From Spartobacteria bacterium (GTDB taxonomy: Bacteria; Verrucomicrobiota; Verrucomicrobiia; Chthoniobacterales; UBA6821), in contig CANKWU010000008.1 of assembly GCA_947487385.1 (NCBI GenBank), forward strand, positions 1 to 64,000: DNA of 64,000 bases, given 5' to 3'. The notes beneath the pieces are model-generated. The model saw nothing but the letters and a program-made list of their open reading frames with translations, had not been told where the DNA came from and did not search any database. A program made the translations under genes and the position numbers. Below, piece by piece: positions 16,713-24,154 of this stretch (its first letter is position 1; every line of letters starts with the position of its first letter).

Positions 16713-18017
16713 TCAGCCTTCAGTTCTTTTGCCTAGCCGAAGGCTGACCGAGCGTCCGTGGGCATCAAGTCCTTCGACGGCGCAGAAGGTCTCGATGAAC
16801 GGAAGCGATTTCTTAAGCGAGGCGACATCGTAGCGGACGATGCTGGTGCGGCGCTGGAACTGCTCCGCAGTGAGGCCGGCAAAAGCCTTGCCCGCGCCAC
16901 CAGTCGGCAGCTCGTGGCTCGGTCCGGCAAGGAAGTCCCCCGCAGCCACCGGTGAGATGTCGCCGAGGAAGATGCCCCCGGCAGAGTTTAGCTTGGTTGC
17001 AAGGATCTCCGGCTTGCGGACAGCGAGGGACACATGCTCGGCGGAGAATCCGTTGGCGATCTCCACGGCTTGAGCCATGTCACGCACGCGGACAAGGACG
17101 GCATTAGCCATTGCCTTGGCGAGATGCTCCGGACGGGTGGAGAGCGCCGACTGCCGGATAATCTCTTTCTGGACAGCCTTGATCATCTTGTCCGAATCAC
17201 TCAACAGCACGACGACGCTGCCGGCACCATGCTCAGACTGAGCGAGCAGATCAGCAGCCACCCAGACGGGATTAGCCTTCGCATCAGCAATCACGAGAAC
17301 CTCGCTGGGTCCCGGGAGCAGGTCAATGCCGACACGCCCGAAAACCTGGCGCTTCGCCTCGACGACATAGGCATTGCCGGGACCGAAGATCTTGGTGACG
17401 GGACGGATGCTCTTGGTGCCATACGCCAGAGCCGCTATCGCCTGGGCTCCACCCACGCGGTAGATTTCCGTGGCGCCGCAGAGATCAAGTGCCGCGAGCA
17501 GGGCGGGAGCCACCGTCCCATCGGCAGAAGCGGGAGTGACAGCCACAATTTCGGGAACACCAGCCGCCTTCGCGAAGCCACAGGTCATGATCGCGCTGGA
17601 AACAAGAGGCGCCGTTCCCCCTGGAATATAAAGGCCCACACGGGGAAGAGGATCAAAGCGCTCACCGACAAGTGCCCCCTGCGCGTTCTTCATCGACCAG
17701 TTCTTGCGCAGGCTTTTTTTGGCAAAAGCCGTGACGTTCGCAATCGATGCAGAGAGTGCTTTCTTGATCTCCGGAGACAAGGAGGCGCGGGCCTTTTTGA
17801 TCTCCTCGGGAGTGACGCGGATCTTTGCAGGCGTGATCTTCGGCCCGCCAAATTTCAACGTGTAGGACAGCAGTGCCGCATCACCCTTCTTCCGGATATC
17901 GGCAATGATTTCCTCGACCGTCTCTCGCACCTCGGCACGCGGTTCGGCCTGGCGGTTTAACTCGGCAAGGGAGCGGTCAAAGCCGCGGTCGTTGTAGGAA
18001 ATCAAACGCATCCGCAA
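16713..18017 (-). CDS. hisD: histidinol dehydrogenase
   Basis: HisD carries out the last two steps of histidine synthesis, oxidising histidinol to histidine with NAD. The 434-residue zinc enzyme has the family signatures: GLYIPGGTAPLVSSAIM, FGPGNAYVVEAKR, DLLPGPSEVLV, the zinc-ligand LLAQSEHGAGS and AGDFLAGPSHELPTGGAGKAF. The start is the ATG at 18017 (MRMRLISYND). No other his genes are in the window, so the pathway is dispersed. It heads the minus-strand run hisD-folP-cdaA-glmM, although a functional link with folP is not obvious. Confidence 0.95.
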   Translation of the reverse strand: MRMRLISYNDRGFDRSLAELNRQAEPRAEVRETVEEIIADIRKKGDAALLSYTLKFGGPKITPAKIRVTPEEIKKARASLSPEIKKALSASIANVTAFAKKSLRKNWSMKNAQGALVGERFDPLPRVGLYIPGGTAPLVSSAIMTCGFAKAAGVPEIVAVTPASADGTVAPALLAALDLCGATEIYRVGGAQAIAALAYGTKSIRPVTKIFGPGNAYVVEAKRQVFGRVGIDLLPGPSEVLVIADAKANPVWVAADLLAQSEHGAGSVVVLLSDSDKMIKAVQKEIIRQSALSTRPEHLAKAMANAVLVRVRDMAQAVEIANGFSAEHVSLAVRKPEILATKLNSAGGIFLGDISPVAAGDFLAGPSHELPTGGAGKAFAGLTAEQFQRRTSIVRYDVASLKKSLPFIETFCAVEGLDAHGRSVSLRLGKRTEG

Positions 18018-18078
18018 ATACTAACGCGAGAATCTCCCGGGGTCAAAACCCGTGCGTAGCCACAATCACTTCAGCCAA

Positions 18079-19473
18079 TTACGCGAGACGGAAGCGGATG
18101 GCGGCAGCCACTCCCAGCGCGCCCAGACCAAAGAGTACACAGGCGGAGGGTTCGGGCACCGCTCCCGGATAGAATCCAGAGGTGAAATAGACATAACTAT
18201 TGGTCGCGCCATAGTCATTGGTGATCAGTCCAATATAACCGTTTGAAGCATCGTAAAGCATGTTGAATGCATTGAAGACATTGCGTCCTGAGTTGAAATA
18301 CTGCGATCCATACGGGGACTGATTCTGTGAGTAGATTCCATTCGTTCCCGGTGGTGACAGGAAGACATTATTGCTGGTGCCTCCATCCGAGGCGCTGGTG
18401 TTATCAAAGGAAGGATTCAGATAATTATTAGAATCACCATTGATTTTGTAACCAACGCCCCCTCCTGAGTTGATCAGATTGATCGACAATGCCGGATTGG
18501 AGAGGGCACCATTGGTGTAGTCGGCAAGGGTGAGATACGAATAGCCAATGCCGGAATCAAGAACGATAGAACCGGGTGCGTTCGTTACCCCACCGATGAC
18601 AACCTGTCCGGTTGGAGTCTGCCAGTCGGGCACTGAATTCGAGCTGGTGAAGCCGGTGGGATTGAGCTGCGTGTAGGCGTAGCCTGTATTCTTCTCCGTC
18701 AGACCAAGCTGCACTCCGGTCGGAGTGATCACATAGCCCGCCACCATGAGGCCATTAGTCATCGATGAAAAATTCAGGAAGGGATTATAAATCTGATTCC
18801 TATTATTTCCAATGGGACCCGTGCCCTGGCCATTCAAATCAAATCCAACTCCGAAATTGGAGACTGAACTGAGCAGAGGATTATTAGAATAATACATTTT
18901 CTGCCCATTGGAGAGAGTGACATTCGCACCTGTAAAATTCGTTGAATATGTATTCCCATTGGTATCAACGATCATGGCAGTTCCTGAACTGCTCCTCATT
19001 CCGAAGGTTGCATTATCTTTGGTTGCCTGAACGGCTTCTACGGCAAGAATATCGACCGTTTCCGAGACATTGGTCAGGTGTCCGTTTTGATCGGTTACGA
19101 CAAAGCTCACGGTGGAAGGTGTCCAATAGCCAAGATTATTTCGTCCGGAACTGGTAAGATTGATTTCCCCAGCGAACGAGCCGGCGTTGGTTGTGAAACT
19201 AGGCCCAAGTGTATTAGCATCAACATAGATTCCGCGGGATCCGGTATCCAGATTGAAAGTTAGTGACTGGCCTGCAATTTGGGCCGTCACCTTGACGTCA
19301 TGCGAGTTAGTGCCAGAGTTGTCAGGGCTAAATCCGGTCCCATCGGCATAGTTGAGAAAATAGGAATTCCTGTATCCTGCATAGCCAGTCAGTGGATTAT
19401 CCTGAGCGTACAGAAAAGTTCCGCCCGCCAGACAACAAAGCGTTGCCAACACTGAGACAAGGGATTTTTTCAT
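18079..19473 (-). CDS. PEP-CTERM exported protein with aspartic-protease-like motifs
   Basis: The protein has about 464 residues. It has a signal peptide (MKKSLVSVLATLCCLAGG, cleavage after LYAQ) and a C-terminal PEP-CTERM sorting tail (VPEPSACVLFGLGALG followed by basic residues), which exosortase systems process. The mature part is rich in Asn, Gly, Ser and Thr. Two short motifs match the paired catalytic loops of pepsin-like peptidases: LDTGSRGIYVD with Asp76, and VLDSGIGYSYLT with Asp306. Their spacing of 230 residues fits a bilobal fold. Similar inactive folds exist, so activity is unproven. The ATG at 19473 is preferred over 19488 because AGG lies at a suitable distance upstream. Confidence 0.75.
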   Translation of the reverse strand: MKKSLVSVLATLCCLAGGTFLYAQDNPLTGYAGYRNSYFLNYADGTGFSPDNSGTNSHDVKVTAQIAGQSLTFNLDTGSRGIYVDANTLGPSFTTNAGSFAGEINLTSSGRNNLGYWTPSTVSFVVTDQNGHLTNVSETVDILAVEAVQATKDNATFGMRSSSGTAMIVDTNGNTYSTNFTGANVTLSNGQKMYYSNNPLLSSVSNFGVGFDLNGQGTGPIGNNRNQIYNPFLNFSSMTNGLMVAGYVITPTGVQLGLTEKNTGYAYTQLNPTGFTSSNSVPDWQTPTGQVVIGGVTNAPGSIVLDSGIGYSYLTLADYTNGALSNPALSINLINSGGGVGYKINGDSNNYLNPSFDNTSASDGGTSNNVFLSPPGTNGIYSQNQSPYGSQYFNSGRNVFNAFNMLYDASNGYIGLITNDYGATNSYVYFTSGFYPGAVPEPSACVLFGLGALGVAAAIRFRLA

Positions 19474-19526
19474 AGGCGCATGCCTCATAACAAAAGAGGC
19501 TCACATTCGGCAATTGGAAAACTCCT

Positions 19527-20747
19527 CTATGGCTTTGTCCAAACAGGTCTCCCAATCCAGAAGGGGTTGGCAACACCCTCTCGATAGGCTTTCAAGGAAG
19601 CGCGGGAGGAGTTCACCCGCAGATTACTGTAGGAGCCGTCGTCGTTCTGCCACCGCTCGTGCCAGAAAATTGCTGCCTTCAACCTCGGATATTTGGCAGC
19701 ATTTTCCATCTCACGGAAAGCCTCCGCGATCCAGATGCCCTTGTCCTCATTGAGCTGATGGGATTCCGTGACACCCCATTCGGCCAGCATGATCGGCTTC
19801 TCGGGATCAAGGGCACACATTTCGGCATAGGGCCACTCAAGCAGGCTGGCAAAGCCGCACCATTTGTCATCCTCCTGATTGCTGGTCTGCTTTCCGTAGA
19901 CGCTGAGACCCAGCCAATCAACATACTTCGACCCGGGATAGTAGGCAGCCGGTTGGTTCCACGAGATGTAACCGGGAGGATCAGAGTAGTTATTGGGCTG
20001 GAAGACCCAGAGAACATTGGTCGCGCCGCGGGCACGCACGCGCTCAACGACATGTCGCCAGGCTTTCTTGAAGGTTTCAGGGCCTTCCCAGGTAGCGGGG
20101 TTCTTGATGTCCCCTTTGCCGAACCAACTCTTCTCGGGGCCGTCATCCATCCCCGTGAGCTTGTCTACGGCAGCGTTTGAGGGAGTTGTGCTTGAGGGAT
20201 TTGCGCTGACAGGCGACGTAAGCTTGATCGGATCACGGGGACCCTTGCCATAAAACCATCCCGACCAGGGGAACCAGGTGCCGTTCATTTCACAGGCAAA
20301 GGAGACAAAGAACTGGCAAGGTACCTTTGCCGCTTCGTCGGCCCATTGGTCGATATAGCCATCCCATTTCCCGGCAATGATCTCGGTAAGGGAAAACTTA
20401 TCAGGCCCTTGTTTCTGAACATACGGATCATCCCAAGGAGACCAGAAGAGGAGTGGCACAGCTCCATAAGATCGGACACACTGCACCTGCTGGGTGGGAA
20501 AGGTTCCCCTTCCCCAGAAGGATCCAAGAGCAACAAGGGCCATTGGCTTGCCCGTGAGATGCTGAAAGCTCTCCAACGCCTCGTAGGTCACTCCATCCTC
20601 CCCATCACCGAAGTCACAATAGGCTCCGGTATACATACCCTTCTCCGGAATCTGCAATTGCTGGTACGGGCTGGCGGCGCCCAGAAGAGAGCTTGCAGCA
20701 CCTAGCAGGAGTGCTGAAAAAGTGATGTTAATGAGGCGGGACTTCAT
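19527..20747 (-). CDS. exported glycoside hydrolase family 26-like protein
   Basis: This 406-residue protein has a signal peptide (MKSRLINITFSALLLGAAS, cleavage near residue 25) and a TIM-barrel like that of GH26 beta-mannanases. The predicted acid/base is Glu153 in FACEMNGTWFPWSGW and the nucleophile is Glu323 in MLAEWGVTE. Both contexts are typical of the family, which cleaves beta-1,4-mannan or related beta-glycans. The ATG at 20747 overlaps the stop of the upstream GT2 fusion gene by four bases (ATGA). The long upstream open frame is an antisense-like extension into that gene. The coupling suggests it trims or releases the polysaccharide made by the fusion protein. Confidence 0.85.
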   Translation of the reverse strand: MKSRLINITFSALLLGAASSLLGAASPYQQLQIPEKGMYTGAYCDFGDGEDGVTYEALESFQHLTGKPMALVALGSFWGRGTFPTQQVQCVRSYGAVPLLFWSPWDDPYVQKQGPDKFSLTEIIAGKWDGYIDQWADEAAKVPCQFFVSFACEMNGTWFPWSGWFYGKGPRDPIKLTSPVSANPSSTTPSNAAVDKLTGMDDGPEKSWFGKGDIKNPATWEGPETFKKAWRHVVERVRARGATNVLWVFQPNNYSDPPGYISWNQPAAYYPGSKYVDWLGLSVYGKQTSNQEDDKWCGFASLLEWPYAEMCALDPEKPIMLAEWGVTESHQLNEDKGIWIAEAFREMENAAKYPRLKAAIFWHERWQNDDGSYSNLRVNSSRASLKAYREGVANPFWIGRPVWTKP

Positions 20748-23700
20748 GCGTCGGGCAAAACGTGCGGGGCTGTCTTGGCGGTCATCGTAGGCTGCAATGG
20801 CGCCCGTTGTTCCTTCTGGATGATTGCGGCGGCTGTCCGGTCGAGCTTCGACCAGCGCACCCAACTTCCGGCGAGAGCCTTGAGAATGCATTTCCAGACG
20901 ACATAGCCGAGCAGGGGTCTGTAAAGAAGCCTCATTGGAACACTCAGCCATGCTATCCGCCGTGGCCGACCAGCCATCGAGAGTGCGATGACACCAAGGA
21001 AGACATCCAATAGCAGCGAAGCGACAAAATAAGGCCAGATCGCGACACCACGGCCAAGCCAGAGCGACCAGAGCACGATCAGGTCGAGCACAGGAGTCAA
21101 CGCCACCACTCCCATCTGAAAGATCCAGACCGAGGGAAGGGCAAACCAACCGAGCCAAGCTGAACCGGGATTGAATGTCAGATCGCCATGCTTCCAGAGA
21201 CACTGAAGCGTTCCGAAGGCCCAACGGAAACGTTGCGAAACAAGGGCCTTGACGCTCTCGGGCGCCTCGGTATCGGCAAATGCCTTTGAGGAAAAAACAA
21301 CCTTCCATCCCAGACGATGGAGCTGAAGTGTGAGATCGGTATCCTCGGCCAACGTATCGTTGGTGATGGGTCCGGCTTCCAGAAGCGCCTTGCGCCGGAA
21401 GGCACTGAGTGCTCCAGGCGCCACGGAGATACAGCCTAGGAGATCCTGGGCACGGCGGTCGATCTCGAAGGCAGCAGTATACTCCAGATCCTGAAAACTA
21501 CCGAGCCAGTGCTTTGTATTGCCAACACGGATGTAGCCAGAAACCCCACCGACCTCCGGATCGGAAAGAGAGGTAACCAGCTGGCGGATGCCGTCCGGCG
21601 CGACCATGGTATCGGCATCAATCATAACGATCGTCTCGTAACTCGCGAGTCCCAGTGCGCGGTTGAGAGCCAAGGCTTTCCCAGTATTCTGCTGGCTTAT
21701 GAAGCGGACAAGGGGCTCAATCGCCGCGATCGCTTCCACGACTTCCGCTGTGCGATCCTTGGAGCCGTCATCGACCACGATGATCTCGAGTGGTGCGGGA
21801 TAATCGGAATCCAGGAGATGCTGGATGGTCGAGGCTATGACCCGTTCCTCATTATAGGCCGCGAGCAGGACACTGGCAGGCGGATAGGAAATCGGCGGGT
21901 GCTGCGGATGTAATCTCTCTCGCTTTCGTTGACGTTGAGCACAGAAGCAGTAGAAGAAAACACGCAGCAGCGCGAGCAGGGTGACGATGACAAGAAGCGT
22001 CCAAGCGGCACTCTCCAGGAAGCGCATGACCGCGAAGGCCCCGTAGACATAACGGGCTGAGAGCGGCTGATTTTCCTCACGGAGCGGAGCCATGATAGTG
22101 TCGCGGGGGAGATTGATGATATCTGCTAGCGGCACGATCACGTCGCCTCGGCTTCGTAGCCAATCGATGATCTCCGGAAGGGCCTCCACGGTCTGGGATC
22201 GATCACCGCCGCCGTCATGCATCAGGATGACCGATCCTGTAGCCCGTTGATTCTTAACCCTGTCGATGATTGCCCGCGCGCTCGGCCTCTCCCAATCATC
22301 GGGATCAATCGATTCGGCAACGGTTAGATATCCAAGATCACTTACCACCCTTAGAGACCTGACTTCGCCAGGCTGGGTCGGAGTTCCGTCAATGCCAAAC
22401 GGGGGTCTGAAATAAGCGGTCGAATGGCCTGTTACAGCCTCGATCAGCCTGGTTGTGGCGTTTAGCTCCAATTCGATCTGCTCGTCGCTCTCTTCGGCGA
22501 TATTCTGGTGGGAGTAGGTATGATTGCCAACCTCGTGTCCGTCTCGTACGATTCGCTCTAGTAGATCGGGATAATGCTGGGCCTGAGTTCCAAGCACAAA
22601 GAATGATGCGGGGGCATTCTTTTCTTTCAGAATCTCCAAGATCTTCGGAGTCCATTTCGGATCAGGACCGTCATCAAAGGTGAGCGCTACCTTGTGGGGC
22701 CCTGGATCACCCTGCCGCGTGATACTCTCGGGCATCGGCAACTTGATGTACTGCTCCACCAATTCGCCGTCGGGATGGATCTCCAGATGGCGTTCCCCCC
22801 CATGGGAATCGCCACCGACGGTGATAAAGTCTCCTGTGCCGCTGGAGGCGATGAGTTCATCAAGGTTAAGCTGGGAGAGCTTGGCAATGGACTGGAGATC
22901 AGGCCGCTTTTCTGGATTCATTCTCAGGACATCCCAGACAGCGGGATCTTCCTGCCCAAGCCGGTAGAGGCCAATACCACCGGGATGGAAAGGAGCAATC
23001 AGGCGGCGCTGATTGAAGAGCGTGACCGCATCAAGGAACCAGAGTTCGTGCTCCTGGTTCTGATCGGGGCCTGAGAGATAGTTGAAATTTGGAGAGCCAT
23101 CCTCGCAATCTAAACCATTCAGCGGGTCGATCCCCGCCAGCGAGGCCCTGGCCATGGCGTCGGTAAAGCCAATCTGCTCGACGCTCTTATTGTCCTTCCT
23201 CCAGTCATTGGCACAAGTGCCAAGACCGATCACCCACTGCGAAGGATCGCCGTAGACCATCATCGTTTTCAGCCAACCCTGGAACCAGGTGCTGCTGGCG
23301 AGGGGGCCCGGGTCGTCGACTTCCGAGTTCTCGTCATAGAGCGCGGCGACCAACCTGTCAACGAACCCGGCGATGGCATTCAGATCAAAGGCATCAAAAT
23401 CAGCTCCCGTAGGAACGGCAAACCAGAGCTCTTTCCTTGCGGCATGGAGATGGTCGGCCATCTCCTTAATCAGCCTCGAATACTCATCCTGATAGGTCGG
23501 ATCAAGCTGGCTTAGTTCCAGAATCAGCCCTGTCGAACCCGGCGGCAGTCGGCTCACAAGCCGGTCTAGGAAGAGACTACGCTCGGCCTCGGGTTCATGA
23601 GCCAGCTCCTCCACAGCCTCTGGTTGCCATGTATCCCCATCCAGGTTGCGAAGAATCGGCAGGAATCCAAGACCCTTCCGTAGGGAGAGGAGGCGAGCCT

Positions 23701-24154
23701 TGTCGCTGGCATCCTCCTTGAGCGTTCCTTCCACCCCGCTGAGGATGAACCAATCGACCGCCACATGGGTTAGTTGGTCGGCATGATGCTCCAGGGAAAG
23801 AAGTGAGGCAGGATCCCAGGGGGATACATAGCCAAGCACGATGCCTGAATTCTTCGGAATGCTGGTCACGATGGATTGCCCCCGATCCTGCTGGCCTAGG
23901 TGAATGCGGCTCCAGTCATCTTTTGCATTCCGGAGGGGAATCTTGGCCGGGGGAAGTGCCTTGAACCGAGCGCGGAACTCTCGCACCACCGAGGGAAGCA
24001 GTAGCTTAGGTCCGATCAGCAGGCCCCAGATGAAATAACCGGTAGCGGTGACAAGCAAGAAGCATCCGACAACGGCCGTTAACTGAAGGACACGACGCCT
24101 GATACCCCGAGGGTCGGCAAAGACACCCTTTTCCTGATCAGAGGACACGTTCAA
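20744..24154 (-). CDS. membrane fusion protein: GH18-like, NodB deacetylase and GT2 synthase
   Basis: This 1136-residue protein joins three polysaccharide activities. A membrane anchor (about 28-50) is followed by an extracytoplasmic GH18-like barrel (about 85-430, GYVSPWDP near its start). Next comes a NodB deacetylase (about 490-690) with LTFDDGPDPKW and the metal-binding HTYSHQN. After a second membrane segment comes a cytoplasmic GT2 domain (about 755-1000) with VDDGS, the DADT metal site, the acceptor EDTD and the QRFRW motif, and then C-terminal membrane segments. GT2 synthases of this type make poly-N-acetylglucosamine or other beta-glycans, and NodB would deacetylate the product. Whether the GH18 part is active is unclear. 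The gene is coupled to the GH26 gene. Confidence 0.88.
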   Translation of the reverse strand: MNVSSDQEKGVFADPRGIRRRVLQLTAVVGCFLLVTATGYFIWGLLIGPKLLLPSVVREFRARFKALPPAKIPLRNAKDDWSRIHLGQQDRGQSIVTSIPKNSGIVLGYVSPWDPASLLSLEHHADQLTHVAVDWFILSGVEGTLKEDASDKARLLSLRKGLGFLPILRNLDGDTWQPEAVEELAHEPEAERSLFLDRLVSRLPPGSTGLILELSQLDPTYQDEYSRLIKEMADHLHAARKELWFAVPTGADFDAFDLNAIAGFVDRLVAALYDENSEVDDPGPLASSTWFQGWLKTMMVYGDPSQWVIGLGTCANDWRKDNKSVEQIGFTDAMARASLAGIDPLNGLDCEDGSPNFNYLSGPDQNQEHELWFLDAVTLFNQRRLIAPFHPGGIGLYRLGQEDPAVWDVLRMNPEKRPDLQSIAKLSQLNLDELIASSGTGDFITVGGDSHGGERHLEIHPDGELVEQYIKLPMPESITRQGDPGPHKVALTFDDGPDPKWTPKILEILKEKNAPASFFVLGTQAQHYPDLLERIVRDGHEVGNHTYSHQNIAEESDEQIELELNATTRLIEAVTGHSTAYFRPPFGIDGTPTQPGEVRSLRVVSDLGYLTVAESIDPDDWERPSARAIIDRVKNQRATGSVILMHDGGGDRSQTVEALPEIIDWLRSRGDVIVPLADIINLPRDTIMAPLREENQPLSARYVYGAFAVMRFLESAAWTLLVIVTLLALLRVFFYCFCAQRQRKRERLHPQHPPISYPPASVLLAAYNEERVIASTIQHLLDSDYPAPLEIIVVDDGSKDRTAEVVEAIAAIEPLVRFISQQNTGKALALNRALGLASYETIVMIDADTMVAPDGIRQLVTSLSDPEVGGVSGYIRVGNTKHWLGSFQDLEYTAAFEIDRRAQDLLGCISVAPGALSAFRRKALLEAGPITNDTLAEDTDLTLQLHRLGWKVVFSSKAFADTEAPESVKALVSQRFRWAFGTLQCLWKHGDLTFNPGSAWLGWFALPSVWIFQMGVVALTPVLDLIVLWSLWLGRGVAIWPYFVASLLLDVFLGVIALSMAGRPRRIAWLSVPMRLLYRPLLGYVVWKCILKALAGSWVRWSKLDRTAAAIIQKEQRAPLQPTMTAKTAPHVLPDA

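Follow-up and report, generated by a model that had tools for sequence, protein, structure and literature searches.

A predicted pepsin-like protein with a PEP-CTERM sorting signal in a Spartobacteria bacterium, and its relatives

Does a PEP-CTERM protein of a Spartobacteria bacterium represent a pepsin-like aspartic peptidase at the bacterial surface? The question is raised by a gene on the minus strand, at positions 18079 to 19473 of a 64,000-nucleotide stretch of contig CANKWU010000008.1 (the window), in which the original prediction had recognized a DTGS and a DSG motif followed by a PEP-CTERM tail. The host is a freshwater-type bacterium. As far as the available text of three sources goes, the described bacterial homologs of pepsin are few and cytoplasmic, with PecA as the surface-located exception (PMC4814920, PMC2761423, PMC6819658). 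A literature search, with most subscription journals outside its coverage, returned no description of a pepsin-like protein sorted by an exosortase.

The open reading frame with both motifs is present as described, and encodes 464 amino acids plus a stop codon. A probable Shine-Dalgarno sequence, GAGG (19483–19486), lies 9 bases upstream of the ATG at 19473. The GC content of the gene is 49.0%, compared to a window mean of 55.8%, and 9 of 314 equal-length stretches are lower. In the translation, residues 1–24 (19402–19473) resemble a signal peptide by eye, with a KK pair, a hydrophobic stretch and the sequence LYA-Q. The first invariant position in the family alignment, residue 31, follows this stretch, and a propeptide of pepsinogen size is thus absent. 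The putative first catalytic motif, D76-T-G, is embedded in the sequence LDTGSRG (19240–19248), of which DTGSR is invariant in 18/18 aligned rows, and is followed by the predicted flap hairpin S108-S-G-R (19141–19152), with S108 and S109 invariant. The segment N206-F-G-V-G-F (18841–18858) corresponds in position, by eye, to the first hydrophobic-hydrophobic-Gly loop, and the putative second catalytic motif, D306-S-G in VLDSGIG (18550–18558), was assigned from the same alignment. The C-lobe signature FNSGRNVFNAFNMLYDASNGYIGL (residues 393–416; 18226–18297) contains the invariant residues N394, G396, R397, D408, G412 and G415. A YD..NGYIGL pattern in the C-lobe resembles the C-terminal end of pepsin. 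The protein ends in a PEP-CTERM sorting signal, consisting of VPEPS, a membrane stretch and a basic end (18100–18162), and its cysteines, at positions 13, 14 and 445 only, are confined to the signal and the tail.

Although the spacing of the two motifs had been taken to be that of bilobal aspartic peptidases, D76 and D306 are 230 residues apart, which exceeds the spacings given in the cited texts for pepsin (183 residues, Asp32–Asp215; PMC2761423) and PecA (177 residues, 293–470; PMC6819658). Taken alone the motifs are weak, since 8.5% of 20,000 shuffled sequences with the composition of the window protein contain two D[TS]G. They might therefore have arisen by chance in a low-complexity PEP-CTERM protein, rich in Asn, Gly, Ser and Thr, that is unrelated to aspartic peptidases, and the searches of sequence libraries are in line with such an origin. 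Neither the window protein nor the profiles A3, A4 and A5 lead to a named protease when searched against Pfam, NCBIfam and PDB sequences, and the window protein itself gives no PDB sequence match. PF00026 gives no match to the window protein at E 10, nor to any of the 18 family members at E 1, and none of the Pfam and NCBIfam models recognizes the window protein outside its PEP-CTERM tail, its NCBIfam matches being PEP-CTERM families below their cut-offs and one chance match. Chance is nevertheless extremely improbable in view of the invariance of the motifs across phyla, the match in fold and the profile-profile matches far over shuffled controls, as described below.

A single-sequence search of the GTDB contigs with the window protein yields no relatives. 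With a six-row profile the search of these contigs yields 19 loci encoding a domain of this type (the A domain), which are found in Verrucomicrobiota, Mycolicibacterium/Mycobacterium, another actinobacterial metagenome-assembled genome (MAG), Planctomycetaceae, a MAG titled Candidatus Kuenenia, two Rhodospirillales MAGs and one Burkholderiales MAG; a profile search of viral contigs for the A domain finds none. The window protein and 17 of the 19 loci make up alignment A5 (18 rows, four phyla), from which L045 (in two frames) and L046 (partial) were left out. The columns invariant in 18/18 rows comprise D76-T-G-S-R, D306, G308 and 38 more, and family-specific conservation outside the catalytic motifs includes NQxYN, PDW and NTGR. 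Among 213 genomes of the order, 12 give matches at E 0.001, of which six were dropped because they comprise only the C-terminal PEP-CTERM end (18–21 bits). The remaining six genomes contain the A domain (G000, which is the genome of the window, G010, G015, G116, G124 and, as an interrupted copy, G053). In a phylum sample of 387 genomes the five matches besides G000 are all matches of the PEP-CTERM tail, and in a 201-genome sample of the family of M. rhodesiae the A domain is matched in the M. rhodesiae genome only. On these counts the A family, with members in four phyla, is spread widely but thinly. The A genes of L045 (4830–6079, the Burkholderiales MAG) and L046 (175–807, a Chthoniobacter MAG) are broken or partial, reflecting either decay or assembly error. 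The A domain of L037, from the MAG titled Candidatus Kuenenia, groups with the Mycolicibacterium rows, which may indicate a mis-binned contig or a transfer. In L031 (1544–3436, plus strand) a C-terminal extension with no Pfam match replaces the PEP-CTERM tail.

The proposed pepsin-like bilobal fold is borne out by structure prediction. AlphaFold2, run on the 18-row alignment A5, produces a two-lobed beta model (pLDDT 79.7, pTM 0.82), and its likeness to the pepsin fold removes the objection, raised with the original prediction, that the structure might not be a bilobal beta-barrel. A Foldseek comparison of this model with the PDB reveals 533 chains at E 0.001 or better (best E 3.1e-9). The 50 listed matches are all pepsin-type and include plasmepsins, BACE1, BACE2, fungal aspartic proteinases and renin, with modest TM-scores (query-based 0.41, target-based 0.54). 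Among the matches listed by VIA-align, 50/50 are pepsin-type aspartic proteases, the best being a P. vivax plasmepsin (Z 19.4, 276 residues aligned, RMSD 3.7 Å), and human pepsin gives similar values (Z 19.2, 274 residues, 3.6 Å). PE_PGRS16 (4EHC) is absent among the 50 listed matches of either program. The structural matches span about residues 35–421 of the window protein. Over this region the window protein has the same predicted fold as eukaryotic pepsin, renin and the plasmepsins, together with the DTGS and DSG motifs, but the identity in the listed structural alignments is 10–19%. It further differs from the eukaryotic A1 enzymes in the longer motif spacing, the altered flap and second loop, and the lack of cysteines outside the signal and the tail.

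The motif of family A1 is given in the available text of one source as Xaa-Xaa-Asp-[TS]-Gly-[STA], present in both lobes (PMC4814920). In the N-lobe motif of the window protein, N-L-D76-T-G-S, the Asp, Thr, Gly and Ser agree with this pattern, with an Asn, which is not hydrophobic, as the first Xaa. The C-lobe motif, V-L-D306-S-G-I, deviates, having an Ile where A1 has Ser, Thr or Ala. The flap tyrosine of A1 (Tyr75) is missing as well: T107 aligns with the position of the flap Tyr/Phe in module B, the partner domain introduced below, and T, N, D, S or W is found at this position in the A5 rows. In view of the absent PF00026 match and these altered hallmarks, the sequence argues that the window protein should not be classed as a plain A1 family member, and the Ile after DSG and the missing flap tyrosine make its peptidase activity less certain. 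As far as the cited text describes them, the shewasins, bacterial A1 homologs, share with the window protein a pepsin-like bilobal design without a propeptide, but they have no signal peptide, and the cytoplasm is the site where shewasin D accumulates, in contrast to the export signal and sorting tail seen here (PMC4814920). The window protein is also set apart from the shewasins by the lack of a PF00026 match.

The sorting tail proposed in the original prediction is confirmed by PF07589, which matches residues 438–458 at 21.0 bits, over its cut-off of 20.7, in addition to the PEP motif, membrane stretch and basic end; NCBIfam TIGR02595 gives 14 bits, below its cut-off of 16. The genome of the window (G000; 2.05 Mb in 48 contigs, 94.5% complete) contains 12 PEP-CTERM matches over the cut-off and three under it. 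The suggested search for an exosortase reveals one gene, G000:C1:259956–260729, with a PF09721 score of 148 bits, far over the cut-off, and a sorting enzyme thus exists for the PEP-CTERM tail of the window protein. A search for paralogs shows the A domain to be present in a single copy. The two invariant aspartates, the predicted bilobal fold with Z-scores of about 19, and the presence of a PEP-CTERM tail together with an exosortase argue for the reading that we favour as fairly probable, namely that the gene product is an aspartic peptidase with pepsin architecture that is exported and sorted by the exosortase. According to this prediction the N-terminal signal would direct export by Sec, and the PEP-CTERM helix would keep the protein anchored in the inner membrane until its tail is cut off by the exosortase. 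A mature domain of approximately 410 residues, containing neither cysteines nor a propeptide, would then reach the cell surface or the extracellular matrix. Its two lobes would bring together D76 of DTGS and D306 of DSG, such that water could be activated and extended peptides could be cut under the flap. We infer the export, sorting, activity and substrates of the window protein, the last by analogy with PecA, which would point to other surface proteins, possibly including other PEP-CTERM proteins, as substrates.

In most relatives the A domain is accompanied by a second pepsin-like domain (module B), either adjacent or fused. The gene immediately 5′ of the A gene in L002/L028 and L011/L033 lies on the same strand and encodes a PEP-CTERM-like protein with two D-T-G motifs; the tails of these proteins score below the Pfam PEP-CTERM cut-off. 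A single long protein comprises both domains in Mycobacteriaceae and Planctomycetota, in the order B-A and, in the three proteins scanned, separated by a beta helix. The order in the Rhodospirillales fusions is A-B, with a terminal Hint domain in the one scanned. For L035, B and A are encoded in separate frames of a short contig that includes a masked stretch. The A-B fusions are located at L043:4800–8312 and L044:4959–8294 (both plus strand), and the Hint_2 domain at the end of the L043 protein (159.5 bits) may cut the fused pair loose. In the actinobacterial loci L038, L039, L040 and L041 a second long B-domain protein is encoded directly 3′ of the fused B-A gene, with no A domain in the stretch examined. 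In the 18 B domains of alignment A6 both Asp and both Gly are kept, and 15 of the domains have Tyr and three have Phe at the flap position, as read by eye. PDB matches of the A6 profile are mostly designed armadillo repeat proteins, aligned through many short pieces of the D-x-G stretch, and were rejected as spurious. The model of the B domain of L034 (pLDDT 90.7) superimposes on porcine pepsin with a Z-score of 24.2 (268 residues, RMSD 2.9 Å). Modules A and B thus have the pepsin fold in common, and B differs in having D[TS]G in each lobe and the flap Tyr/Phe. A profile-profile comparison with hhalign (probability 96.5, E 1e-9) aligns the first D-T-G of A with the first of B, the second D-x-G with the second, and the C-terminal ends as well, with a score of 82; 100 column shuffles reach at most 23.9 and a reversed profile 15. 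As judged from these profiles, A and B are homologous across both lobes. A match to B is found in 11/213 order genomes, that in G053 arising from the end of its A fragment alone, and none is found in G000.

The second motif of the A domain varies with the presence of this partner. It is D[IML]G in 13/13 A domains with a B partner (L028 and L033–L044), whereas the solo A domains, defined by the absence of B within the fetched flank, have DSG (the window, L029, L030 and L032, the last with an upstream flank of just 0.66 kb) or DAG (L031); B does occur at other places in the genomes of L030 (G015) and L031 (G010). An exception is L045, which has DIG and no B in the locus, but here the gene is broken and the locus ends 2.7 kb downstream. 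Two distant partnerless relatives, L113 (lipoprotein-like by eye) and L112 (an autotransporter with PF03797), have DTG as second motif. In the latter, encoded at L112:4584–8432 (minus strand) in a Rhodospirillales genome, the passenger begins with the A-like pepsin domain (DTG, DTG), which is followed by weak PATR repeats and the PF03797 barrel. DUF3443 is a DTG-bearing family. The five solo rows form one clade in the tree (support 100/99), and their shared state thus points to a single evolutionary change in the lineage rather than five. Rooted on the two distant rows, the tree nests the solo clade among the D[IML]G rows, on long branches, which would mean that DSG was regained. Placing all D[IML]G rows in one clade gives p-values of 0.024 (both distant outgroups) and 0.067 and 0.079 (one each) in the AU test, a borderline result as to the direction of the change.

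Since the second motif is altered in most A relatives, much of the family may be inactive, and it is possible, though on balance doubtful, that the window protein is itself a surface binding, adhesion or inhibitor protein in which the aspartates are kept for structure. Such pepsin folds without catalysis exist in the TAXI-type plant xylanase inhibitors. The altered flap position and the Ile after DSG fit this explanation, as do the common loss of the second motif in partnered A domains and the large share of conservation (NQxYN, PDW, NTGR) that lies outside the catalytic motifs. It accounts less well for the invariance of both aspartates and both motif glycines in 18/18 rows, and for the Ser or Ala in the clade of the window at the position occupied by a large hydrophobic residue in the partnered rows. 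The latter difference, D[SA]G in the solo clade against D[IML]G in the partnered rows, favours an aspartic peptidase. A more elaborate scheme, which we regard as rather unlikely, proposes a two-module surface pepsin system in bacteria, made up of adjacent genes in Verrucomicrobiota and of fused giants in Mycobacteriaceae, Planctomycetota and Rhodospirillales. Here B would be catalytic, and the partnered A domain, having lost the Ser/Thr beside the second Asp as well as the flap Tyr, would be a pseudopeptidase that guides or restrains B, while in the lineage of the window A would have left its partner and regained DSG, the pseudopeptidase becoming a stand-alone surface peptidase again.

Additional evidence for an aspartic peptidase comes from the relation of the A family to the mycobacterial surface aspartic protease domain PE-PGRS_C (PF20729), which includes PecA and PE_PGRS16. 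PF20729 does not match the window protein at E 10. However, hhalign comparison of A with an alignment (A8) of six PE-PGRS_C proteins, encoded in two Mycolicibacterium genomes and scoring over the PF20729 cut-off, gives a probability of 82.9 (E 9e-6), in which the two DTG motifs coincide and the second D-x-G of A is paired with D-S-G, and a score of 43.8 against a maximum of 22.5 in 100 column shuffles. For B the probability is 94.7% (E 6e-8). With other settings the values are 71.7% (A) and 78.7% (B), and 100 shuffles each reach about half the score. In addition, a 388-residue protein of M. rhodesiae bridges the two families, scoring 34.3 bits with PF20729 (cut-off 33) and E 4e-43 with the A profile, and matches of PF20729 below its cut-off fall on the A domain in the protein of L042 and on the B domain in that of L043. 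The profile-profile relation and the bridging protein indicate that the A family and PE-PGRS_C are of common descent. By profile comparison and the bridging protein, the PE-PGRS_C domain of PecA is the nearest described relative of the window protein and offers the best functional analogy. Both PecA and PE_PGRS16 are bilobal and surface-located, with DTG and DSG motifs and an NTG near the C-terminal end, as in the window protein. The window protein differs from PE-PGRS_C in the longer segment between the motifs, the Ile after DSG, the invariant Arg after DTGS and the use of PEP-CTERM sorting instead of type VII secretion.

According to the available text of the PecA report, the DTG aspartate is required for self-cleavage, and PecA also cuts other surface PE_PGRS proteins (PMC6819658). 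The self-cleavage of PecA, and the fact that relatives of the window protein belong to large modular surface proteins, would also suit an active domain that is purely self-processing, cutting itself or its own tail to release or shape a surface protein. For the window protein this is improbable, because it consists of little more than the domain and a sorting tail, the removal of which is the task of the exosortase. The window protein is a candidate peptidase for the PEP-CTERM world. More generally, the A family suggests that surface pepsin-like proteins form a broader set than sequence libraries reveal, with members in at least four phyla. Relatives in other lineages carry surface or secretion modules of their own (beta helix, autotransporter, Hint), in favour of the surface peptidase reading and suggesting that surface pepsin-like proteins have been joined to varied devices of this kind. 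The contrast of D[IML]G in partnered and DSG in solo domains would provide a natural test of the re-arming of a pseudopeptidase.

The genomic surroundings offer hints on the setting of the gene. Its upstream neighbour, across a short gap, is a glycoside hydrolase family 26 (GH26) type gene (19527–20750), followed by a gene encoding a fusion of a polysaccharide deacetylase and a family 2 glycosyltransferase with a weak GH18-like region (20744–24154). Both are on the same strand as the pepsin-like gene, and their sequences hint at an exopolysaccharide setting, although GH26 is common to genomes that lack the pepsin-like genes at this site as well and is found in 15/16 genomes of the genus. On the other side lies a gene (16713–18017, minus strand) which we take to be hisD-like by sequence likeness. 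In 14 other genomes of the genus the corresponding slot (window 18017–19527; L095–L108) could be compared: hisD adjoins GH26 with an empty gap in 12/14, while the slot contains B′, B and A in G010, and B′ and B in G015. In the hisD tree G010 and G015 group together (98/97), and the window is placed among the genomes with an empty slot (82/79). Together with the slot contents, this suggests that the hisD–GH26 site was either filled by pepsin-like genes in two lineages, or filled once at an early stage and emptied many times since.
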